64,000 bases of DNA. It comes from Halochromatium roseum (GTDB lineage: Bacteria > Pseudomonadota > Gammaproteobacteria > Chromatiales > Chromatiaceae). Within the stretch, counting starts at the first letter, position 1; the number at the start of each line of letters is the position of its first letter. The stretch is from contig NZ_NHSH01000042.1 of assembly GCF_016653315.1 (NCBI RefSeq), positions 62,001 to 126,000 on the forward strand. Reading direction: 5' to 3'. Below, piece after piece: positions 6,867 through 39,165 of the stretch. Under the pieces are notes generated by a model. The model was given only the letters and a program-made list of their open reading frames with translations. It made no database searches and was not told the origin of the DNA. The translations under genes were made by a program, and so were the position numbers.

Positions 6867-7838
6867 ATGACAGCAGAGGCCACAACCAGGTTGCGGCGCA
6901 AGGCAGTGAGGGGATGGTTAAGAACGGTGGCGGCCGCTGGAATCGGGTGCTCGACGTCCGTCTTTTCACATTCCGATCCGGCGCCTGTCGAGCTGCTGCT
7001 GAGTGGGCGGCATCAGGCCTATCAGGCGGTTGCCGATGGGCTTCTGCAGGGCTTGACGAGGACAGCGGCTGGGCGGCGCCTGCGGGTGGCTCAGCAACAG
7101 CTGCCGGAAAGCGAGCCGAGCGCTGAAGCAGCGTTATTGGTCGCGGTGGGGGCGCGTGCCTGCGAGCGTGTGCTCGAGCAGCAGGCTGTTCCGATCTTGT
7201 GTGTCTTTATTCCCGAAGGTCGGTTTCGCACCCTGGCAGCGCGAAAACGGGCCGATCAGCTCCTCGGCGCGATCTTCATCGATCAGCCGATCGTCCGCCA
7301 ACTGGCGCTTGCTCGGGCGCTATTGCCCAATGCTAAGCGGGTTGGTTTGCTGGCTGGGGCGCAGTTGAGTCAGGCCGAGGTCGCGCTCCGCCGTGCGGCG
7401 CTGGCCTTGGGGTTCAGGGTCAACCTAGAGGTGAGTGACGGCGGCAAAGACGTCGCGCCGGCAATCAGGGCGCTGCTGCAACGGGCCGAATTGATTGTTG
7501 CGGCCTTCGAGCCGGAGGTATTGAGTGTCTCAACCGCACGCTGGTTGCTCCAAGGTGCCCATCATCGGCGAATCCCAGTGATTGGCTATTCGGCAGCCTA
7601 CGTCGAAGCGGGCGCCTTAGCAGCAATCTACAGTTCGCCCGAGTCCATTGGTGAGCAGACCGCGGGCGCGGTCCTGGCTTGGGCGCGACAGCGGCAGCGC
7701 TGGCGCCCGCCGGTGTCTTATCCAGAGCAGTTTGAGCTGTCTATCAACGCCTCGGTTGCGAGCGCTTTGGGGATCGATGCCCCTTCTCTTGAGGTGTTGG
7801 CCGAGCGTGTCGATAGGCTGATCGGGGATTCCCGATGA
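6867..7838 (+). CDS. Periplasmic ABC-type substrate-binding protein
   Basis: A 323-residue protein of the ABC substrate-binding type related to the TrpX/PF04392 group. After a basic and hydrophobic export signal comes a two-lobed fold: VELLLSGRHQAYQAV..., ...LLVAVGARACERVL, LLGAIFIDQPIVRQLALARALLP, a central strand AKRVGLLAG, and IPVIGYSAAYVEAGALAAIYSSPESIG. No ABC permease or ATPase gene lies nearby. Its stop overlaps the kinase start (ATGA), so it most likely serves as the periplasmic ligand sensor for that kinase rather than as a transporter part. The ATG at 6867 is chosen; a GTG at 6858 is also in frame. The ligand is unknown. Confidence 0.8.
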   Translation: MTAEATTRLRRKAVRGWLRTVAAAGIGCSTSVFSHSDPAPVELLLSGRHQAYQAVADGLLQGLTRTAAGRRLRVAQQQLPESEPSAEAALLVAVGARACERVLEQQAVPILCVFIPEGRFRTLAARKRADQLLGAIFIDQPIVRQLALARALLPNAKRVGLLAGAQLSQAEVALRRAALALGFRVNLEVSDGGKDVAPAIRALLQRAELIVAAFEPEVLSVSTARWLLQGAHHRRIPVIGYSAAYVEAGALAAIYSSPESIGEQTAGAVLAWARQRQRWRPPVSYPEQFELSINASVASALGIDAPSLEVLAERVDRLIGDSR

Positions 7839-10600
7839 GACGGCCGCGATACGCAGTCCTGCAAAGCATCCAAGGGCGTTTGATCGCGCTGGCCTTGGTG
7901 CCCTTGGCGGTGACCTCGGTCATGGTCGGTGGCTACAACGTCTATCGCGGTGCTGAAGACGCTCGCGCAACGCTCGAATCGCGCGGTCGGCTGATCGCCG
8001 ACAACTTGGCGTTGGCGGCAGAACTGCCGCTGTTGGTCGGAGACCTCTCGCAGTTGCGGGCGATCTGCCGGACAGCTGTTCTGCAGCCCGACGTGATTTG
8101 GGCGGGAATTCGTGATCCAGGCCATGAGCTACTGGTTGAGAGCGGTGCGACTGAGATCGCAAAGCAGACGGGACTGCGGTTTACGTCGATTGCGGGCAGC
8201 ACCGCTACGCCCGTGGCTGATCATCCTGAGCAATTGGAGCCCATTGCGGCCGTCAGTCTGCTGGGTTGGGCTGAGGTGCGTCTGTCGATGGCATCGACGC
8301 TGTCAGCGCAGCGAGCGCGTTTCATCAAAGGCTTCTGGATGCTGCTGGTTGGTCTTGGTGCGAGCATCTTGGCTGCGCTCTCGATCGGGTCAGCGTTGTC
8401 GCGGGCTCTGCATGACCTGAGCACGACCGTTGCACGGTATCGAGAGGGTGATCTGAGCGCTCGCGTCCCGCGGCAGTCTTTGGTCGAGCTGGATCAACTG
8501 GCCCGAGGCTTTAACTTCATGGCCGCTGAGCTTGAGGGCGCGCAGCAAGCCATGCGACAACAGGTCGAGCTGGCGACGCAGGAGTTGCGTCATAGCCTGC
8601 GCACGCTGGAGCAGCGCAATCTGCAATTGGAGCAAGCGCGCGAAGAGGCGTTTGCGGCGAATCGGGCAAAAGATCAATTCATTGCGCGTGTCAGCCATGA
8701 GATGCGCACGCCCTTAAATGCCGTCGTGGGTTTTGGTCGGTTGCTTGAGCAGGAGGCACAGACGGAGGCGTCGCGGGACTATAGCCAAACGATCGAGCGC
8801 GCGTCGGAGCAGCTGCTGACTGTGGTGGATGACATTCTTCAGTATGCGAAGCTGCATGTTGGAGCGCTGTCGATCGAATCGGAACCTTTTGATCCCTGGC
8901 GTTGCTTGGAAGACGTGGTCGCCATTCTGGGCCCAGAGGCTGCGGCCAAAGGCATTGAGCTTGCGCTTCTGGTGCATAGCGATGTCCCGGAGCGGCTGCG
9001 CGGTGATGCGAATCGCATTGGACAGATCTTGTTGAACCTGCTCAATAACGCGGTCAAGTTCACAGAGCAGGGTCATGTGTTTGTGGAGGCGAGCTATCGG
9101 TCCTTGGCGCGAGGCGATCATGGCGTTGGTGGTGAGCTGCAGGTGGTGGTCATCGATACCGGCATTGGCTTGAGCGATGCGCAAAAGCAGCGGTTGTTCC
9201 GACCCTTTGAACAGGCTGACTCGGCCATCTCCCGTCGCTATGGAGGCAGCGGATTAGGTTTGGTGATCAGCAAACGCTTGCTTGAGTTGATGAACGGCCG
9301 CATCGAGGTGCGAAGTCAGCTGGGCAAGGGGTCACGCTTTGCGTTTTCACTGCCCTGCGATGCCCTGTCTTGCCGCGCCTGGAAGGAGGCGCCTCGGTCC
9401 ATGGCTGGGCGCAAGGTGCTGCTGTGTGATCCCGCCCCCATTCAGGTACGGGTACTGCGCTCGGTGCTGTTGAGCTGGGGTATCGAGGTCTTCGCGACCA
9501 GCCAGATCGAGCACATCGAGACCATGTTGCGGCAAGCCGAGCGCGTTGGTCGCAGGTTTGATCTTCTACTCCTTGGTCTCGCTGTGCGTGGTGAGCCGCA
9601 GGTCGAGATTGAGCGCAAGGTCGTTGAGGTCTGCGACCTGTTCAGCGGCCCGTTGCTGTTGTTGGTCAACGAGCAACGCTGGCAGTTGCCCGCCGCGGTG
9701 CAGGCGCTGGGACGAGTGGATTGGTGTCCAAAGCCGGTGCGCCGCGAGCGGCTGTTCAGTCTGCTCGGCCGACTTCTTGGCGTTGACGAGATCGAGCGGG
9801 CTCATGGGTCGGGCGTCGCATCGGCTCCGGTCTTTCCCGGAGTGCCTGTGTTGGTGGTCGATGACAACGCGTTTAATCGGTCGTTGATGCGGGAGCTGTG
9901 TGAGGTGCGCGGCATGCGGGTGGCTGAGAGCGCCTCGGGGCACGAGGCACTGCAACGAGTCGAGAAGCAAAGGCCGGCGCTGGTGTTCATGGATCTGCAC
10001 ATGCCGGGCATGGATGGCTTTGAGGCCGCGCGCCGCTTGCGGGCGCTGATGCCGCAGGGACAGGGTCCGCGCATCATCGCGCTGAGCGCCGATGCCTTTG
10101 TCGCTGAACCTACTGATGATCTGAGTCCGTTGTTCGATGCCTTTCTGCTGAAGCCGCTCTCAGAGCGGTTGTTGGATGAGACCCTGGAGCGTCTGTTAAG
10201 CGCTCAGCGATCAACCGCTCCGGCGCGGTCGTCGGCGACGGCGCAGCGGTTCGCGCCTCAGCCCATCGATCCAGCTGGCGTGCGGCCGGTGACGCTCGAT
10301 GTCCACGGGCAGGGGCGCCTTGAGCAGGAACTGCTGGATCAGCTGGCCAAGCTGGAGGCTGCCATCAGTGGCGCTGAGCGCGCTGCGGTGCGTGAGCGGG
10401 TGCACGACTTGAAGGGGCTCTGCGCCTTCTTTGGGCTGGAGCCGGTCAGGCAGCAGATGGTCGAGTTCGAGGAGGTGGCCAAGTCGGCGCCTTTTTCGCT
10501 GTTACAGCGCAAGTACAGGCGGCTGCGGGCGCGTTTGACAACGTTGATCAAGGCTGGCGAGCTGGGCTCAGGGGATTCAGAATCTAACGTACCGGGTTGA
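7835..10600 (+). CDS. Hybrid sensor histidine kinase with Hpt domain (BarA-like)
   Basis: A 921-residue inner-membrane kinase. A first membrane helix (about residues 16-36), a periplasmic domain, a second helix (GFWMLLVGLGASILAALSIG) and a HAMP domain (ALHDLSTTVARYREGDLSAR) lead into a coiled coil. The histidine kinase core has His288 in SHEMRTPLN, N-box LLNLLNNAVKF, DTGIGL and GGSGLGL. The first receiver-like domain (about 535-650) lacks the phospho-acceptor Asp and is degenerate; the second has Asp720 in FMDLHMPGMDG and Lys in LLKPLS. A C-terminal Hpt domain has His857 in VHDLKG. It overlaps the binding-protein gene by four bases. The layout predicts a phosphorelay His288-Asp720-His857 to the two response regulators encoded upstream. 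Confidence 0.93.
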   Translation: MRRPRYAVLQSIQGRLIALALVPLAVTSVMVGGYNVYRGAEDARATLESRGRLIADNLALAAELPLLVGDLSQLRAICRTAVLQPDVIWAGIRDPGHELLVESGATEIAKQTGLRFTSIAGSTATPVADHPEQLEPIAAVSLLGWAEVRLSMASTLSAQRARFIKGFWMLLVGLGASILAALSIGSALSRALHDLSTTVARYREGDLSARVPRQSLVELDQLARGFNFMAAELEGAQQAMRQQVELATQELRHSLRTLEQRNLQLEQAREEAFAANRAKDQFIARVSHEMRTPLNAVVGFGRLLEQEAQTEASRDYSQTIERASEQLLTVVDDILQYAKLHVGALSIESEPFDPWRCLEDVVAILGPEAAAKGIELALLVHSDVPERLRGDANRIGQILLNLLNNAVKFTEQGHVFVEASYRSLARGDHGVGGELQVVVIDTGIGLSDAQKQRLFRPFEQADSAISRRYGGSGLGLVISKRLLELMNGRIEVRSQLGKGSRFAFSLPCDALSCRAWKEAPRSMAGRKVLLCDPAPIQVRVLRSVLLSWGIEVFATSQIEHIETMLRQAERVGRRFDLLLLGLAVRGEPQVEIERKVVEVCDLFSGPLLLLVNEQRWQLPAAVQALGRVDWCPKPVRRERLFSLLGRLLGVDEIERAHGSGVASAPVFPGVPVLVVDDNAFNRSLMRELCEVRGMRVAESASGHEALQRVEKQRPALVFMDLHMPGMDGFEAARRLRALMPQGQGPRIIALSADAFVAEPTDDLSPLFDAFLLKPLSERLLDETLERLLSAQRSTAPARSSATAQRFAPQPIDPAGVRPVTLDVHGQGRLEQELLDQLAKLEAAISGAERAAVRERVHDLKGLCAFFGLEPVRQQMVEFEEVAKSAPFSLLQRKYRRLRARLTTLIKAGELGSGDSESNVPG

Positions 10601-31947: not shown

Positions 31948-33063
31948 TCAGGGTGTTGCGATTGGCTCGTCCTCCTCCGGGACGCGGATGATCTGCTCTG
32001 CTTTTGTGTCGAGCAGTTCGATCAGCCCTGCCATCGCTGGTGTCATCTGAATCCGACCAAGAGTGTCGATCAGCAGTGCGTAGCGGATGCCCATGCGCCC
32101 GGCGATGCGTGGCCAGTCCTGGGCGCCAGCGATCATCAAGGCGTTTGCCGCAGCTGCAGCGGTGAGTGCATCACCCTCGTAGAGAACCGTTGCTGAGGCT
32201 AGATCGTCGGTTGGGCGGCCGCTTCGTGGATCGATCACTGAATGATAGACCTCGCCCTGATAGACAAAGTTGCGGCGTTGGGTGCTCGCAGTGAACAGGC
32301 TGATATCGCCGCTAACATCAATGATGCCGATCACGCCGGTTCCGCTGGCGCGTGGCACAGGAAGGCGCCAGGCGCGTCCGGAGCGGCTGCCAATCGCGCG
32401 CACATCGCCGCCGATGTTGATCAGCGCACTGCGAACCGCTTGAGCGCGCAGCGCATCCATGGCGACCTCCATCGCATAGGCGGTTGCAACCGGATCGAAG
32501 TCGAGCTGGACCGCAGGGTTGTCGCTCTGCAGCTGAATCCCGTCCAGGTAGAGATCGTCCATGCTCGGTTGCACGGCGAGTAGGGCGTCGATCGCCGCCT
32601 GGCTGGGTGGAGGGTTTGATTGCGGGCGAGCCTGGTCGAGCCCCCACAGCCGGGTGAACCGGCCTAAGGCTGGATTGAATAGGCCATCGCTGAGGTGGAA
32701 GAGCGCTTGGCTATGCGTCAGCAGCGGTAACAGCGATGGTGGGGCCGCAAATGGCTCGCCACTGGCGAGCCGTTCGTTTATCCGTAACAATCGGTCTGAG
32801 TTGTCGCTGTACAGGGCGCGGTCGAAGAAGAGCAGGTCGCGTTCGACATCCGTTGCCGCTGTCTCAGCGCGTTCACGTTGGATGCCGACGATGCTGAGAT
32901 CGACCGCGGTGCCGAAGGCGGGAAACTGGGTCGTATAGACGGGGACTTCCGTGGTGTTGCAAGCGACCGTGAGCGCGGTGATGAGGAGCAAGACGGCCGT
33001 GCGCCGGAGCGTCCTCAGCGTGGGCCGGCGAGGTGCCTGCCGCGGGCAGCGATTAGCGCGCAT
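31948..33063 (-). CDS. apbE: FAD:protein FMN transferase (ApbE), lipoprotein
   Basis: ApbE attaches FMN to threonines of target proteins such as Rnf and Nqr subunits, or handles FAD in the periplasm. The 371-residue precursor has a lipobox LTVAC at the end of a signal peptide. The family core shows TQFPAFGTAVDLSI, FDRALYSDNSDRLLRINE, LFNPALGRFTRLWG, the FAD-binding SALINIGGDVRAIG and the metal-site region YHSVIDPRSGRP with DDLASATVLYEGDALTAAAAANALMI. It overlaps gshB by 11 bases. Its place between gshB and tonB is an insertion relative to the Pseudomonas order. Confidence 0.93.
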   Translation of the reverse strand: MRANRCPRQAPRRPTLRTLRRTAVLLLITALTVACNTTEVPVYTTQFPAFGTAVDLSIVGIQRERAETAATDVERDLLFFDRALYSDNSDRLLRINERLASGEPFAAPPSLLPLLTHSQALFHLSDGLFNPALGRFTRLWGLDQARPQSNPPPSQAAIDALLAVQPSMDDLYLDGIQLQSDNPAVQLDFDPVATAYAMEVAMDALRAQAVRSALINIGGDVRAIGSRSGRAWRLPVPRASGTGVIGIIDVSGDISLFTASTQRRNFVYQGEVYHSVIDPRSGRPTDDLASATVLYEGDALTAAAAANALMIAGAQDWPRIAGRMGIRYALLIDTLGRIQMTPAMAGLIELLDTKAEQIIRVPEEDEPIATP

Positions 33064-34018
33064 CGAGTCGGCTCTCGATGGCGGCCATCAGATCTTGGGC
33101 GATATCGGTACTAGCGGCACGGTCGATCTCTCGGATACAGGTTGGGCTGGTGATATTGATCTCGGTGAGCCAGTCGCCGATAACGTCGAGCCCGGCAAAG
33201 AGCACCCCGCGGGCCTTCAGCTCCGGTGCCACTTGTGTTGCAATCCAGCGCTCGCGCTCGCTGATCGGCCTGACCTCCGCACTGGCGCCTGCCGCCAGGT
33301 TGCCGCGCGATTCGCCAGCGGCGGGTATGCGTGCTAGGACATAAGGCACCGGTTCGCCATCGACGATCAGCACGCGTTTATCGCCATCAGCGATCTCGGG
33401 TAGAAAACGCTGCGCCATGCAGAAGCGCTGACCGGCGCCGCGGCTGACGCCGATCAGCGCCTCGATGATCACCGAGGTGTTGGGGTCGCCACGGCGGACG
33501 CGGAAGATCGAGCGCCCACCCATGCCATCGAGCGGCTTGAGCACGATCTCCTCATGCTCGACGAGGAACTCTCGCAGCACATCGGCATGGCGACTGATCA
33601 CGAGTGGCGGACAGCATTGTGGGAAATGGGTGGTAAAGACCTTCTCGTTGGCGTCGCGCAAGGTCCTCGGTGCGTTCACCACCAGGCAACCGGCAGCCTC
33701 GGCAAGTTCGAGCAGATAGGTCGCGTAGACATATTCCATGTCGAACGGCGGGTCTTTGCGCATCAGCACCGCATCGAGCGCTGAGAGGGCCAGTGTTTCG
33801 CTGTCCTCGAACTCAAACCAACCGGCGGGATCATCCTTCACTCGCAGTCGGCGCATGCGGGCTCTGACCTCTGCGCCAGCGACGAACAGGTCGGCGATCT
33901 CTAGATAATAGAGCGACCAGCCGCGCTCCTGCGCCGCGAGCAGCATGGCAAAACTGCTGTCTTTGCTGATCTTGATAGACCCAATCGGGTCCATGACGAC
34001 ACCAAGCTTGTACTTCAT
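33053..34018 (-). CDS. gshB: Glutathione synthetase
   Basis: GshB joins gamma-glutamylcysteine and glycine. The 321-residue ATP-grasp enzyme starts KLGVVMDPIGSIKISKDSSFAML, followed by VLMRKDPPFDMEYVYATYLLE, the ATP-binding loop VLKPLDGMGGRSIF, and ends with GLDVIGDWLTEINITSPTCIREID. It is encoded downstream of a possible small RNA with an intrinsic terminator and lies at the head of the tonB-algH-ruvX-pyr order. Purple sulfur bacteria also make glutathione amide, for which this enzyme would supply the precursor; that is inference. Confidence 0.96.
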   Translation of the reverse strand: MKYKLGVVMDPIGSIKISKDSSFAMLLAAQERGWSLYYLEIADLFVAGAEVRARMRRLRVKDDPAGWFEFEDSETLALSALDAVLMRKDPPFDMEYVYATYLLELAEAAGCLVVNAPRTLRDANEKVFTTHFPQCCPPLVISRHADVLREFLVEHEEIVLKPLDGMGGRSIFRVRRGDPNTSVIIEALIGVSRGAGQRFCMAQRFLPEIADGDKRVLIVDGEPVPYVLARIPAAGESRGNLAAGASAEVRPISERERWIATQVAPELKARGVLFAGLDVIGDWLTEINITSPTCIREIDRAASTDIAQDLMAAIESRLDAR

Positions 34019-34070
34019 CTCGCCAGTGTACCCCTTGACGGCTTTGGTCTGCGAGGCCGTTTCTTGTCAC

Positions 34071-34180
34071 AAAAGAAACCCCGGCGATCGGGGGAAGCAC
34101 CGGGGTAACTGTTCCCGGTTGTGGGGAGCCGGGAGACATAGCCGCTAGGGAGGGGGGCCCATTGCGGCCTAGCGCATTGT
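34071..34180 (-). ncRNA. Candidate small RNA with three C-rich hairpin loops and terminator
   Basis: On the minus strand three hairpins follow each other. The first pairs CCTAGCG (34168-34174) with CGCTAGG (34143-34149) and its loop holds a long C-run with CCTCCC. The second pairs TCCCGG/CCGGGA (34129-34134 with 34113-34118), loop CTCCCCACAA. The third pairs ACCCCGG/CCGGGGT (34100-34106 with 34078-34084), loop TGCTTCCCCCGATCG, and is followed by TTCTTTT (34077-34071), an intrinsic terminator. All three loops expose C-rich, Shine-Dalgarno-complementary sequence, a layout known from trans-acting small RNAs. A -10-like TACACT lies at 34203-34198. No family name is claimed; it could instead be just a terminator after the upstream adaptor gene. 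Confidence 0.55.
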
Positions 34181-34233
34181 TGCGCTTGCAATTTAAGAGT
34201 GTAGCAGTTGATTGGAGTTCCGCTAGGGCAAGT

Positions 34234-35106
34234 TTATGGAAGTGTGACCTGGACAAATTCCGAGGGTCTGAGAATCTCGTCTGGCCTGCTGTCGAAGATC
34301 ACGTCCAACTCATAGACGGCGCCGTCTGGGTCGATGCGCACCGCTTCGACTCCCAGGCTGTAGATGGTGCCGGTGCGCATCTGGCCACGGACATTGATCT
34401 TGGCCGACTGTCCAGGCCGATAACGGCGCAGGATGTCGGAGGTGACGAGCACCCGCGCGAGCATCTGGCTCGTTGGGGCAACGGCGATCAAGGGTTGCTG
34501 CTGCAGGGTCTTGTAGATCACCGCGCCCTGATAACCGTTCTGTGCGACGATGATCCCGTCAAAGGGCGCGCGCAGCTCGGTGCGCTCAAGCAGTACGTCG
34601 GCCGCAGCCTGCTTGGCCTTGGCCGATTCAAGCTCGGCCTCGGCGGCGGCCATCAGCAGCTCAGCGTCTTTGAGCTCTTCGCTGGCGATCAGCCCGCGGT
34701 CGAACAGTTCTTGCGCCCGCCCGAGTTCGCGCTCGGCGCTGTCGAGTGCAATCTGCTGGCGGGCGACGCCAGCCTTGGCCTCAAGGCTGGTCGCCTGCGC
34801 CTCGCGCTGATCCATGCGCAGCAGCAGCTTGCCCTCATCGACATGCTCGCCTGGCGCGACTAGGACCTCGGCAATGACACCATTCTCGACCGCGCGCATC
34901 TCGACCTTGCGCACCCATTCAAGTCGGCCGCTGAGCTGCAGCGCGGCCGCCGCATTGCTCGCCAGGAGCGACAGCAGGAGCGCGCTGAGCGCCAGCCTCA
35001 GGGCCGGAGCCAGTGCGTGCCGCGACCAGGAAGACGGCGTCGGTGCTTGATTTGCAGCGCTTAAGAGTGAAGTGCTTGAGAGTGAAGCGTCACGGCGCTC
35101 GATCAT
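34234..35106 (-). CDS. Periplasmic adaptor (membrane fusion) protein, HlyD/RND type
   Basis: A 290-residue adaptor protein. An N-terminal membrane or signal helix (LRLALSALLLSLLASNAAAA) leads to a lipoyl-like half (LEWVRKVEMRAVENGVIAEVLVAPGEHVDEGKLLLRMD), a coiled-coil hairpin with heptads (ATSLEAKAGVARQQIALDSA...ELESAKAKQAAADVLL), the second lipoyl half (ELRAPFDGIIVAQNGYQGAVI) and a beta-barrel domain. It overlaps the TolC-like gene by four bases. The inner-membrane pump that should join them is not encoded here, so a pump at another locus, or a role apart from efflux, must be assumed. Confidence 0.88.
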   Translation of the reverse strand: MIERRDASLSSTSLLSAANQAPTPSSWSRHALAPALRLALSALLLSLLASNAAAALQLSGRLEWVRKVEMRAVENGVIAEVLVAPGEHVDEGKLLLRMDQREAQATSLEAKAGVARQQIALDSAERELGRAQELFDRGLIASEELKDAELLMAAAEAELESAKAKQAAADVLLERTELRAPFDGIIVAQNGYQGAVIYKTLQQQPLIAVAPTSQMLARVLVTSDILRRYRPGQSAKINVRGQMRTGTIYSLGVEAVRIDPDGAVYELDVIFDSRPDEILRPSEFVQVTLP

Positions 35107-36236
35107 GGCGTTTGCCCTCGAAGTGCATTGAGCTCGGCCTGGGTGAGCGCGCGGCAGAAGGCGGTCTCCTGCTCATCCCGCCGTGCCTTGGTCTGCTGGC
35201 TCATCGAGAAGCCGAGGTCGGCCTTGGCTTCGAGTTCGTACATGGTGCGGCTCTCGTCGAGCTTCAGATCGCGCCAATCGGACTCACTGCGGGCCTGCTC
35301 GGCGATCACCTGCAGAAGTTGCAGACGGGTCAGCAGCTCAAGGGCGCGCTCGCGCACGGCCATCCGCACCAGGGCTTGCTCGGCATCGCTGCGGCCCTGC
35401 ATCAAGGTCTTGACCTCTGGGTTGTGCTCGATGGCCGCGTTGACGACTGCCTCCAGGTCCATCGGCTCCGGCGTAGAGGTATCAAGCGTGGGTGTGATCA
35501 GCTGGCGGGGCAAGGAAGTTGGATGTCCCATCGCCGTTGCGAGCATGGCACGGGTGACGCGCTGCGCGGCCTCGCTGGCGGCGCGCTGACGTCGGATCAG
35601 CTGATAATCGGCTTGCAGCTCGGCGGTGCGCAGTGGTGAGAATTGCCCAAGCGCTTCGCGCGCTTCGGCGCGGTCGAACTGAATGAAGGCGACGGCCATC
35701 GCCTCGTTGTCGCGCGCGAAGCTGAGGTCGGCCAGCAGCACATCATAGAAACGCTGCATGATCTCAAGACGTTGGGCATCGGCGCTGCTCAGCAACGCGG
35801 ACCAGGCGACATCGCGCTCGGCGTCGTTGCCGCGTGCGCCACTGAAGGCGAGTGAATGGCAACCGAGATAGAGGGGCTGAGCGCGTGGGAGGTCGACTGT
35901 GGGGGCTGTTGAAGCCTGCTCGGCGCGTACGCGCGGATGGGTCTCGGCGAAGCCAAGCGCCTGTTCTAGGCTGAGCGGGTCGGGCACGTCGACCAGCGCT
36001 TCATCGGCGTTTGTCGTCGCTGCGGCGATGGTCGCTAGCAGCATGACCATCACCAGCTGCGGAGCAGCCATCCGCAATCTGGCTGGTGCGACGCTCGCTA
36101 ACGACGGAGCAGTAGTTGCTCCCTTGGCTGTCAAAGGCAACGATCGGATGCATTGGCAGGGGCGCCCTGGGGTGTTATCAGCGATGGTGTCGGCGATGAT
36201 GTCGCCGGTTCTGTCGGCAGTTGATGATTGCTTCAT
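35103..36236 (-). CDS. TolC-like outer-membrane efflux protein
   Basis: A 377-residue protein with features of the outer-membrane efflux family: PLSLEQALGFAETHPRVRAEQA near the start of the mature part, long Ala/Glu/Gln-rich helices (FDRAEAREALGQFSPLRTAELQADYQLIRRQ), VVNAAIEHNPEVKTLMQGRSDAEQALV, and a final helix QTKARRDEQETAF. It is shorter than TolC (~450) and the second half of the helical repeat is incomplete, so it may be a divergent or partly reduced member. GAGGA precedes the ATG at 36236; a second ATG at 36071 starts directly at the signal-peptide-like MAAPQLVMVMLLATIAAATT and may be the true start. It precedes the adaptor gene with an ATGA overlap. Confidence 0.75.
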   Translation of the reverse strand: MKQSSTADRTGDIIADTIADNTPGRPCQCIRSLPLTAKGATTAPSLASVAPARLRMAAPQLVMVMLLATIAAATTNADEALVDVPDPLSLEQALGFAETHPRVRAEQASTAPTVDLPRAQPLYLGCHSLAFSGARGNDAERDVAWSALLSSADAQRLEIMQRFYDVLLADLSFARDNEAMAVAFIQFDRAEAREALGQFSPLRTAELQADYQLIRRQRAASEAAQRVTRAMLATAMGHPTSLPRQLITPTLDTSTPEPMDLEAVVNAAIEHNPEVKTLMQGRSDAEQALVRMAVRERALELLTRLQLLQVIAEQARSESDWRDLKLDESRTMYELEAKADLGFSMSQQTKARRDEQETAFCRALTQAELNALRGQTP

Positions 36237-36402: not shown

Positions 36403-39165
36403 TCAGTGCGCCTCGTCCCAGTTGTCGCCGATGCCGGCCTCAACCAGCAGCGGGACTGCCAGTTCGGCGGCGCCTTGCATCAGTGCACAGATCTGCGAGG
36501 AGACCGCATCCGCGGCCTCCTCAGCGACCTCGAACACTAGCTCATCGTGCACCTGCATGATCATTCGCACCGGCGGCTGCTCGGTCTGAATCCAGCTGTC
36601 GACCTGGATCATCGCGCGCTTGATGATGTCCGCCGCAGTGCCCTGCATCGGGGCGTTGATCGCGGTGCGCTCGGCGGCGCTGCGCAGTTGATGGTTACTG
36701 TGGCCGATATTGGTGAGGTAGAGCCGGCGGCCGAACAGGGTCTCGACATAGCGGTCCTTGCGCGCTTGCTCTCGGGTCTTGTCCATGAAGTCGCGCACCC
36801 CGGGGTAGCGGGCGAAGTAGGCGTCGACATAGTCCTGCGCCTCTTGCCGCTCGATGCCGAGCTGGCGCGCGAGTCCGAACGCCGACATGCCGTAGATGAG
36901 GCCAAAGTTGACCGCCTTCGCCGAGCGGCGCTGCTCGTTGGACACCTCCTCGGGCTGCAGTCCGAGGATCTCAGCGGCGGTGGCGCGGTGAATGTCCTGA
37001 CCAGCGGCGAAGGCGGCGAGCAGGCGCTCGTCACCCGAGAGGTGGGCCATGATGCGCAGCTCGATCTGCGAATAGTCGGCGGCGAGCATGCGGAAGCCCG
37101 GCTCGGGTACGAAGGCGCGGCGGATGCGGCGGCCGGCCTCGCTGCGGATCGGGATGTTCTGCAGGTTGGGGTCGCTGGAGGATAGCCGACCCGTTGCCGC
37201 GACCGCCTGGTGATAGCTGGTGTGCACCCGGCCGGTCTGCGGATTGACCATCGTTGGCAGCTTGTCGGTATAGGTGGAGCGCAGCTTGCTCACGCCGCGA
37301 TGCTCGAGGATCAGGCGCGGTAGCTCGTAGCCGTCTTCGGCCAGTTTCTCGAGCACGGCCTCGGAGGTTGAGGGGGCGCCCTTTGGGGTCTTGGCGACGA
37401 CCGGCAGCTTGAGCTGATCGAAGAAGATGGCGCCGATCTGTTTCGGCGAGCCCATATTGAAGCGGCTGCCGGCCTCGGCATAGGCGCGCTCCTCGAGTTC
37501 AGCAGCGCGCTCGGCGAGGGCGCGGCTTTGGGCGCCGAGCTCGTCGCTATCGATCTGCACGCCGGTGCGCTCGATGCGTGAGAGCACCGGTACGAGGGGG
37601 ATCTCGATCTCGCGGTAGACGCGGGCTAGGCTCGGTATCGCCTCGATGCGCGGCCAGAGGCTTTGGTGCAGCCGCAGGGTGACGTCAGCATCCTCGGCGG
37701 CATAGGGGGCCGCGGTCTCGAGCGGGATCTGATTGAAGGTCAGCTGCTTGGCGCCCTTGCCGGCGATGGTCTCGAACTTGATGGTGTCCTGGTCGAGGTA
37801 TTTCTTCGCCAGCGAGTCCATGTCATGCCGGGTGGCGGTGCTGTCGAGCACATAGCTCTGCAGCATGGTGTCGTGCGCGATGCCCTGCATCGTGATCCCG
37901 GTGCGGGCACAAACGCTCATATCGAACTTCAGGTTCTGGCCGAGCTTGGGGCGCCCGGGGTCTTCGAGCAACGGCTTCAGCGCGTTCAAGACCTGGTTGC
38001 GATCGAGCTGATCGGGCGCGCCCGGGTAATCGTGGGCGAGCGGAATATATGCGGCCTGGTGCGGGTCGACCGCGACCGAGACGCCGACGATGTCAGCGCG
38101 CATGTAGTCCAGCGCATTGGTCTCGGTATCGAAGGCGAACAGCTCGGCCTGGCGCAGGCGCTCGAGCCAGTCATCGAGTTGGGCTTGACTGAGGATGGTC
38201 TGATAGTCGGCCGTGGATCGTTGTGAGCGGCCAAGCGCGTGCTGATTCGTTGAAGGCTGGCCCGAGGTGTTTCCGTTTCCATCCGAGCCGCCAGCACTGT
38301 CTTGCCGTTCGCCTTCAGTGAGCGTCGCCAGCAGCCGTTTGGACTCGATGCGCTCGTACCAGGCGCGCAGTGTCTCCTCATCGGCTGGGCTCGGCTGCAG
38401 GTCGGTCGGCGCCAGATCCAGCGCGACATCGCGCTTGATGGTGGTCAGCTCGCGTGCAAGCGGGAGCTGGTCGAGTGCTGCGCGCAGGTTCTCGCCGACC
38501 TTGCCCTTGATCGCGTCGGCGTGGCTGATCACGCCATCGAGGCTGCCGTATTCATTGATCCATTTCACGGCAGTTTTCGGACCACACTTGGGCACCCCTG
38601 GGATGTTGTCGATACTGTCGCCCATCAAGCTCAGATAATCGATGATCCGCTCTGGCGGCACGCCGAACTTGGTCTTGACGCCGGCGGGGTCGAGCAGGCT
38701 GTCGGTCATGGTGTTGATCAGCGTAATGCGCTCCTCGACCAGCTGCGCCATGTCCTTGTCGCCGGTCGAGATCAGCGTCCTCAGGCCTTCCTGCGCGGCG
38801 CGGGTGGCGAGGGTGCCGATCACATCGTCGGCTTCGACCTCGGGGATCTCGATCAGCGGCAGGCCCATCGCGCGAATGATGGCCTTGAGCGGGTCGAGCT
38901 GCTCGCGCAGTTCGTCCGGCATCGGTGGGCGATTGGCCTTGTACTCGCTGTAGATCGCCTCGCGGAAGGTCGGCCCCGGCGCATCGAAGACGACCCCAAT
39001 ATAGGCCGGCGCGGTCTCGTCGATGAGTTTGCGCAGCATGTTCAGCACGCCGATCAGGGCGCCAGTGGCCTCGCCTTTGGAATTGGTCAGCTTGGGCAGC
39101 GCGTGGTAGGCGCGAAAGAGGTAGCCGGAGGCATCGACGAGGACGACAGCGTACTGAGCTTGCAT
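36403..39165 (-). CDS. polA: DNA polymerase I
   Basis: The 920-residue repair and Okazaki-fragment polymerase has all three domains. Residues 1-290 are the 5' nuclease (VLVDASGYLFRAYHALP, GDKDMAQLV, SIDNIPGVPKCGPKTA). Residues about 320-510 are the 3'-5' exonuclease, with DTETNALD keeping the catalytic Asp-Glu pair, so proofreading should work. The rest is the polymerase with motif A DYSQIELR, motif B KAVNFGLIYG and motif C VHDELVFE. A Gly/Ser/Asn/Gln-rich insert (SAGGSDGNGNTSGQPSTNQH) of ~30 residues separates the first two domains. Repeat copies lie on both sides of the gene. Confidence 0.97.
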   Translation of the reverse strand: MQAQYAVVLVDASGYLFRAYHALPKLTNSKGEATGALIGVLNMLRKLIDETAPAYIGVVFDAPGPTFREAIYSEYKANRPPMPDELREQLDPLKAIIRAMGLPLIEIPEVEADDVIGTLATRAAQEGLRTLISTGDKDMAQLVEERITLINTMTDSLLDPAGVKTKFGVPPERIIDYLSLMGDSIDNIPGVPKCGPKTAVKWINEYGSLDGVISHADAIKGKVGENLRAALDQLPLARELTTIKRDVALDLAPTDLQPSPADEETLRAWYERIESKRLLATLTEGERQDSAGGSDGNGNTSGQPSTNQHALGRSQRSTADYQTILSQAQLDDWLERLRQAELFAFDTETNALDYMRADIVGVSVAVDPHQAAYIPLAHDYPGAPDQLDRNQVLNALKPLLEDPGRPKLGQNLKFDMSVCARTGITMQGIAHDTMLQSYVLDSTATRHDMDSLAKKYLDQDTIKFETIAGKGAKQLTFNQIPLETAAPYAAEDADVTLRLHQSLWPRIEAIPSLARVYREIEIPLVPVLSRIERTGVQIDSDELGAQSRALAERAAELEERAYAEAGSRFNMGSPKQIGAIFFDQLKLPVVAKTPKGAPSTSEAVLEKLAEDGYELPRLILEHRGVSKLRSTYTDKLPTMVNPQTGRVHTSYHQAVAATGRLSSSDPNLQNIPIRSEAGRRIRRAFVPEPGFRMLAADYSQIELRIMAHLSGDERLLAAFAAGQDIHRATAAEILGLQPEEVSNEQRRSAKAVNFGLIYGMSAFGLARQLGIERQEAQDYVDAYFARYPGVRDFMDKTREQARKDRYVETLFGRRLYLTNIGHSNHQLRSAAERTAINAPMQGTAADIIKRAMIQVDSWIQTEQPPVRMIMQVHDELVFEVAEEAADAVSSQICALMQGAAELAVPLLVEAGIGDNWDEAH

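Follow-up and report, generated by a model that had tools for sequence, protein, structure and literature searches.

A predicted small RNA with C-rich loops and a σE-type promoter in Halochromatium roseum, with relatives beside polA and engB in many gammaproteobacteria

The window analysed here is the whole stretch of 64,000 nucleotides from Halochromatium roseum (NCBI RefSeq assembly GCF_016653315.1, contig NZ_NHSH01000042.1, positions 62,001 to 126,000 of the forward strand), and window positions are counted from its first letter. Part of its minus strand carries polA, two further genes, a GC-rich intergenic stretch (34186–34071) that folds into four hairpins, and gshB. This stretch lies between the HlyD-family adaptor gene and gshB, and the end of polA is found 2.2 kb upstream of it, with two genes intervening. 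The features of the locus are, in the direction of transcription:

36403–39165, minus strand: polA (Pfam PF00476, 544 bits)
35103–36236, minus strand: a 377-aa ORF that separates polA from the adaptor gene, like an outer-membrane component by position only
34234–35106, minus strand: HlyD-family adaptor gene (Pfam HlyD_3), directly upstream of the small RNA (sRNA) promoter
34215–34221, minus strand: σE-type -35 element GGAACTC, from the sequence
34198–34203, minus strand: TACACT after TGC, a possible overlapping extended -10 for a housekeeping sigma factor
34194–34198, minus strand: σE-type -10 element TCTTA, from the sequence (TCTGA in several relatives)
34071–34188, minus strand: predicted sRNA of ~118 nt, its 5' end placed from the -10 to within a few bases
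34171–34186, minus strand: 5' hairpin 0 (AGCGCA/UGCGCU), from the fold and covariation helix 1
34140–34169, minus strand: stem-loop 1 with loop CCCCCCU (34157–34151), from the fold and covariation helices 2 and 3
34113–34134, minus strand: stem-loop 2 with loop CUCCCCACAA (34128–34119), from the fold and covariation helix 4
34071–34105, minus strand: stem-loop 3 and U-tract, an intrinsic terminator by terminator scan, fold and covariation helix 5
33053–34018, minus strand: gshB, the downstream gene (Pfam GSH-S_ATP, 230 bits)

The ORF at 35103–36236 is conserved in the genus but matches nothing in Pfam at E 0.001, and its counterpart is located between polA and hlyD in loci L062 to L064 and L117.

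The original prediction, made from the sequence of this stretch, placed three C-rich hairpins here on the minus strand, the last of them an intrinsic terminator. Sequence and fold confirm these three hairpins, to which a 5' hairpin at 34186–34171 has to be added, making four in total. The terminator is likewise listed by the terminator scan and followed by a U-rich tail, UUUCUUUU (34078–34071). Loop 1 had been read as CCTCCC; it is indeed C-rich, but half of that motif is paired in the predicted fold, in which GGG/CCC forms the closing helix and CCCCCCU the loop. Loops 1 and 2 have a high calculated probability of being unpaired, and within loop 3, CUUCCCCCGAU (34097–34087), the fold at 37 °C contains a weak helix of 2 bp that still leaves CCCC unpaired. 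Compared with dinucleotide shuffles, the fold of the minus strand stands out (z -3.48, none of 200 shuffles as good), while that of the plus strand is not outstanding (z -1.48, 17 of 200 as good). A second terminator-like hairpin is present on the plus strand at 34045–34059, between gshB and the sRNA. As to a coding alternative, a brief look revealed no stop-free frame common to all six sequences compared.

The σE promoter consensus is GGAACTT-N16-TCTGA. In the window, GGAACTC and TCTTA are separated by a spacer of 16 nt, and since GGAACTC-N16-TCTTA has the σE form, the original prediction was right in taking GGAACT (34221–34216) for a σE -35. It had paired this element with TACACT as -10; TACACT does occur at 34203–34198, but it is not the partner of that -35, the σE -10 being TCTTA at 34198–34194. 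The sequence TGCTACACT looks like an extended -10 for a housekeeping sigma factor, and TACACT is absent from most of the other genera displayed in the promoter comparison. Among relatives the -35 reads (G/T)GAACTT, and one genus member (L063) has the σE consensus promoter letter for letter. Another (L064) is missing GGAAC and contains TGCTATACT, which suggests that some members may use a promoter of the housekeeping type. When homologues were searched for the pattern [GT]GAAC-N17-20-TC between 60 nt upstream and 10 nt downstream of the model start, leaving out two that begin too close to a contig end (L079 and L161), it was found in 46 of 50 homologues of the family and 65 of 88 of the class, whereas random windows drawn from these loci contain it in 1.5 and 3.2% of cases, respectively. 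The spacer to TC measures exactly 16 nt in 43 of the 46 family promoters and 57 of the 64 class promoters that match the search pattern. Depending on the count, 22 of 89 or 23 of 88 class matches contain no σE pattern.

The H. roseum genome also encodes the corresponding regulators. RpoE (305 bits, above the curated cut-off) is followed by RseA (RseA_N) and MucB_RseB, and a gene for Hfq is present (102.7 bits). Upstream of rpoE itself (L314, position 1428 onward) lies AGAACTT-N17-TCAA, which fits σE autoregulation.

Five other members of the genus were drawn, and BLASTN found copies of the sRNA in four of them, together with shorter matches in other genera. Two covariance models were then used, R1, built from five genus sequences, and R2, built from 43 sequences that all belong to the family Chromatiaceae. 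The window copy matches R1 at 34185–34071 with 138 bits and R2 with 106.4 bits, its sequence being part of both training sets. The covariance search among Chromatiaceae proposed in the original prediction did recover the RNA there (R1, E <= 0.1, 55 of 146 family genomes), but the RNA turned out to be spread far more widely. With R2, matches were obtained at E <= 0.01 in 138 of the 210 genomes searched in the order (a figure that includes the training set, every listed genome belonging to the same family), at E <= 0.1 in 124 of 369 genomes and 97 of 272 genera of the class, and in 17 of 299 genomes of a phylum-wide draw, 13 of which are members of the class. At the limits used, this leaves 72 of the 210 order, 245 of the 369 class and 282 of the 299 phylum-draw genomes with no R2 match. 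Four weak matches beyond the class (E 1.5e-4 to 0.009), whose 3-kb loci contain no polA, were not counted as members.

Compensatory change in the stems is extensive. Alignment A4, with 43 sequences, has changes on both sides in 23 of 28 pairs and a covariation score of 0.479, against 0.154 when shuffled, and alignment A6, with 93 rows of which 92 come from outside the training family, has them in 27 of 28 pairs (0.575 against 0.149). A6 represents 79 of 89 class loci, the ten omitted being mostly near relatives of loci retained. Because both alignments were fitted to the models, they are biased towards the structure, just as R2 itself favours C-rich loops; sliding the partners by 1–3 columns abolishes the covariation signal in A4 and A6 alike. 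The additional 5' hairpin takes part in this, with changes on both sides in four of the four pairs of helix 1. Alignments produced by MAFFT (A1, A2 and A5) misplace stem 1, and in A5 RNAalifold finds changes on both sides in 13 of 15 pairs. Conservation of the first two hairpins, on which the original prediction had been staked, is thus borne out, and their stems covary in relatives. A6 furthermore contains 117 G-U pairs and 40 A-C mismatches, an excess that supports the minus strand as the transcribed one.

The loops are conserved in composition. In A6, 83 of 92 rows have three or more consecutive C in loop 1; of 93 rows, 84 have four or more in loop 2, and 68 have four or more in loop 3. Class-wide, loops 1, 2 and 3 consist of C to 62, 51 and 47%, respectively, compared with 37% for all positions and 19% for the remaining unpaired ones, in matches to a model that favours C. 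Among the A6 rows listed, those from outside the family often have CCUCCCU as loop 1, a sequence resembling the anti-Shine-Dalgarno tail of 16S rRNA. The run of four C is missing from loop 2 in four of five copies of the neighbouring genus (L066–L069) and in L064.

The number of copies also varies. Outside the family, two to four tandem copies of the RNA were observed in L142, L175, L156, L152, L169, L190 and L173, with four each in L142 and L175. At the other extreme, genus member G066 retains only a remnant (R1 19 bits, E 0.011) and has no match in the R1 search of the family or the R2 search of the order, so the RNA is dispensable in that strain. At its locus (L117, ~7780–7960) a single terminator hairpin with a C-rich loop stands between hlyD and gshB, and this hairpin resembles the 5' part of stem 2 fused to the 3' part of stem 3.

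In relatives the RNA is mainly associated with polA and engB. Of 55 family loci fetched, four were dropped by eye as chance matches because they lack the C-rich loops and the promoter (L108, L109, L115 and L116, with R1 scores of 26.7, 26.2, 23.7 and 22.9 bits, respectively). Among the 51 that were kept, polA is upstream on the same strand in 30, within 300 nt in 23; of the 27 family loci from other genera in which polA is seen, 23 have it no more than 300 nt upstream of the sRNA. Five more of the 51 have engB just downstream, which brings the polA/engB total to 35. At the level of the class, 89 loci were examined from the 122 match genomes outside the family, the remaining 33 being the weakest matches. 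Either gene is present in 79 of these 89 (polA only in 15, engB only in 19, both in 45), and both are absent from ten within the 2–5 kb fetched. The identity of EngB was confirmed by TIGR03598 in three loci. In three loci (L149, L201 and L214) the RNA has engB and polA as neighbours and is transcribed in the direction opposite to polA.

This association also emerges from a test that is independent of the RNA, in which 80 named polA loci were fetched and searched with R2 at E <= 1. All 32 matches, distributed over 29 loci of which four (L234, L235, L239 and L248) hold training-set sequences, are downstream of polA on the polA strand, and no more than 4.5% of the searched sequence falls in the 1000 nt following polA on this strand. 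Among the 51 loci in which R2 matched nothing, some stop within a few hundred bases of the end of polA. One of the 32, in L301 (E 0.87, 900 nt after polA), is probably a chance match and was excluded from the engB count. Among these records, L284, a MAG titled Klebsiella pneumoniae, looks odd, its PolA being 60% identical to that of the window. In all, the ancestral arrangement probably had polA upstream, next to the sRNA.

Taken together, these data make it probable that the element is a σE-induced, trans-acting sRNA of ~118 nt that blocks G-rich ribosome-binding sites, and that it is the Chromatiaceae version of a gammaproteobacterial polA-engB family. Evidence at the level of sequence supports the structure and strand of the element, the pattern of its promoter, its locus and its wide conservation, and from this we infer its transcription, its induction by stress, its pairing with ribosome-binding sites and the resulting repression. 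In the model proposed, envelope stress would lead RNA polymerase with σE (RpoE) to transcribe the sRNA from the minus strand, and the transcript would end at its own terminator. Three stiff stems would then present the C-rich loops, which may base-pair with mRNAs at G-rich Shine-Dalgarno sequences or close to them and so block ribosome binding. The usual home of the family would be the gap between polA and engB, into which, in the window, a gene pair apparently of efflux type intervenes. The central claim of the original prediction, an sRNA gene with loops of the anti-Shine-Dalgarno type, is accordingly retained as a prediction, strengthened by covariation, promoter, loops conserved across genera and the polA/engB position.

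Other roles for the hairpins were considered. They might form a leader or attenuator that regulates the glutathione synthetase gene in cis, as gshB is the next gene on the same strand and its start codon lies 52 nt past the U-tract. However, gshB is within reach in only four of the 55 family loci (L062, L063, L066 and L068), in one of them at a distance of 2.9 kb, whereas polA upstream or engB downstream is retained in 35 of 51. The element moreover ends in a terminator, and gshB is retained in the genus member that lost the RNA. A gshB leader is thus very improbable, because the conserved partner is polA/engB and not gshB. That the hairpins are mere terminators, or the processed 3' end of a polA-efflux operon with neither promoter nor function in trans, would agree with the position of the sRNA directly after the operon, with a last hairpin that would also stop read-through from hlyD, and with G066, where only such a terminator is left. 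This sits badly with the σE-type promoter pattern and its mostly 16-nt spacer (46 of 50 loci in the family, 65 of 88 in the class) and with two first stem-loops that are conserved, covary and expose C-rich loops; in addition, the relatives sX13 and ErsA have been studied as independent sRNAs, as excerpts of PMC3771888 and PMC7565897 describe. We regard this explanation as improbable.

A further alternative is that the C-rich loops bind a protein and not mRNA, the RNA serving as a sponge or scaffold. Tandem copies such as the four in L142 and the four in L175 are reminiscent of titrating RNAs, and the search for targets in the H. roseum genome yielded none. The sponge RNAs of CsrA carry GGA loops, and the C-rich loops found here are unlike them. 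The related sX13, as far as the excerpted PMC3771888 goes, works on G-rich mRNA motifs, so that protein binding as the main function is likewise highly unlikely.

The mRNAs that the predicted trans-acting sRNA would pair with do not emerge from target prediction with the C-rich loops, the approach suggested initially, which gave no clear excess over the control in the H. roseum genome. Octamers complementary to loop 3 and to loop 1 and located 3–11 nt before an ATG number 6 and 5, respectively, versus 5 and 2 for the reversed-pattern control. Only one of these 11 sites opens an ORF of more than 70 codons (L336, 289 aa), and no target is therefore claimed. One candidate is hfq, which sX13 represses in Xanthomonas (PMC3771888, in excerpt). 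In H. roseum, GGGG is absent from the 100 nt that precede the hfq start codon and occurs in codons 3–4 of the gene (L316, start at 1489), a candidate target to be taken as a lead only, because 4G motifs are common. By eye, the Shine-Dalgarno-like GGGAGC of rpoE could pair with loop 2 over only 6 bp, a possible feedback.

By the curated test of Rfam the window copy belongs to no family, since it scores under every cut-off. Its best Rfam match is anti-hemB (RF02837; 23.1 bits, E 0.0024, cut-off 49.5), followed by sX13 (RF02232; 19.7 bits over the full length 1–115, E 0.11, cut-off 50) and ErsA of Pseudomonas (Pseudomon-1, RF01719; 13.7 bits, cut-off 50), while Spot 42 (RF00021) gives no match in the window at E up to 10. 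In Rfam, sX13, ErsA and anti-hemB are separate families without a clan. Searched against the H. roseum genome, the ErsA model has no match at E 0.001, and the sX13 model does not list the window copy and has matches in 7 of 14 control genomes too; its one hit in H. roseum (G000:C48, 14.9 bits, E 5.07) was rejected, as by eye it appears to be in a coding region.

In the reverse direction, R2 arrives at members of these families. An Rfam scan of 80 class loci, from which L154–L162 were left out, gave six with an above-cut-off sRNA match at the R2 place. R2 finds the accepted sX13 of L195 (2248–2365; RF02232 116.7 bits, R2 46.2 bits) and an RNA in L263 (7876–7996; 31.6 bits) that exceeds the sX13 cut-off with 57.2 bits, and five of its class matches (L136, L165, L184, L209 and L213) are above the anti-hemB cut-off. 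In six ErsA loci, the ErsA gene is the only or best R2 match (18.2–20.7 bits in five, 29.4 in L302). In the named polA loci, R2 finds ErsA in L297, L302, L306, L310 and L313, weakly (18.2–19.9 bits) except in L302. One of these, L310, is a record titled Pantoea sp. Cy-639 with ErsA (143.7 bits) after polA, and its title may be wrong. Conversely, the RF01719 model has matches below cut-off in 12 class genomes, ten of which coincide with R2 places; an eleventh, in L231, is found by R2 with filters off. As regards Spot 42, R2 picks out exactly spf as its top match in 5.5 kb of E. coli, though not significantly (8.3 bits, E 0.2), and L285 and L303, which have an accepted Spot 42, give no R2 match at E up to 1; homology of Spot 42 to the window RNA is not established.

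The grouping proposed here is defined by an R2 match with the covarying four-hairpin structure, a σE-type promoter with a 16-nt spacer and adjacency to polA or engB. The window RNA displays the structure (106.4 bits, a match that is circular for this training sequence and not for the 92 other rows of A6) and the promoter, and lacks the adjacency, being displaced. A broader proposal is that the sRNAs of the polA-engB gap (the window RNA, sX13, ErsA, anti-hemB and unnamed ones, perhaps also Spot 42) descend from one ancestral σE-induced RNA mimicking the anti-Shine-Dalgarno sequence, which we put forward tentatively, at slightly below even chances. If true, the envelope stress response would possess an old and general translational arm, and sX13, with no visible σE promoter in L195, and the CRP-controlled Spot 42 would be later, lineage-specific derivatives. 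The sRNAs of the σE regulon are best known in enteric bacteria. Were the grouping right, a conserved RNA of anti-Shine-Dalgarno type would serve the envelope stress response far beyond these bacteria, and what has been learned about the loops of sX13 and the control of ErsA would extend to a large bacterial group. The survey spans many gammaproteobacteria, adds a common σE-type promoter and links several sRNAs so far catalogued separately.

The literature searched contains no work uniting sX13 and ErsA; as most subscription journals were outside the search, a published unification may exist. PMC8575079, PMC5760752 and related papers do not join the families in their titles or abstract openings, and the excerpts of PMC12235514 and PMC4603805 do not describe the window RNA. 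Literature on small RNAs and Hfq in Chromatiaceae gave a sole match, on Beggiatoaceae repeats, and none of the papers listed uses the name anti-hemB; the model of that family (Burkholderia RNA 7) spans 81 positions.

Among the known systems, sX13 is the closest in architecture. According to the excerpted PMC3771888, it is an RNA of 115 nt downstream of polA with three stems and three C-rich loops, the third stem corresponding to the terminator in the window, and its loops repress mRNAs with G-rich motifs near the start without Hfq. The same source describes it as constitutive and restricted to Xanthomonadaceae. Unlike sX13, whose 5' region is unstructured, the window RNA begins with a hairpin, and it is separated from polA by two genes. 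L195 has no σE pattern, whereas the sX13 of L263 (a MAG titled Rudaea) is preceded by TGAACTT-N16-TCTAA, which suggests that sX13 may have lost σE control.

ErsA would be the counterpart of the window RNA in promoter type. It responds to envelope stress and strictly depends on σ22, the σE counterpart (PMC7565897, in excerpt). The portion of PMC8575079 consulted places its gene between polA and engB, describes a U-rich unstructured domain between two stem-loops, and reports that its effect on anr requires Hfq. Spot 42 is alike in location, E. coli spf occupying the same locus (polA-spf-yihA(engB)); it requires Hfq and, to judge from a reference title, its gene is repressed by CRP (both from excerpts of PMC3771888). 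In alphaproteobacteria, the αr7 sRNAs mentioned in that source are likewise encoded at the polA locus and fold into three stem-loops whose loops are C-rich. By analogy with these systems, the window RNA would combine the architecture of sX13 with the promoter type of ErsA, two sRNAs that both adjoin polA.
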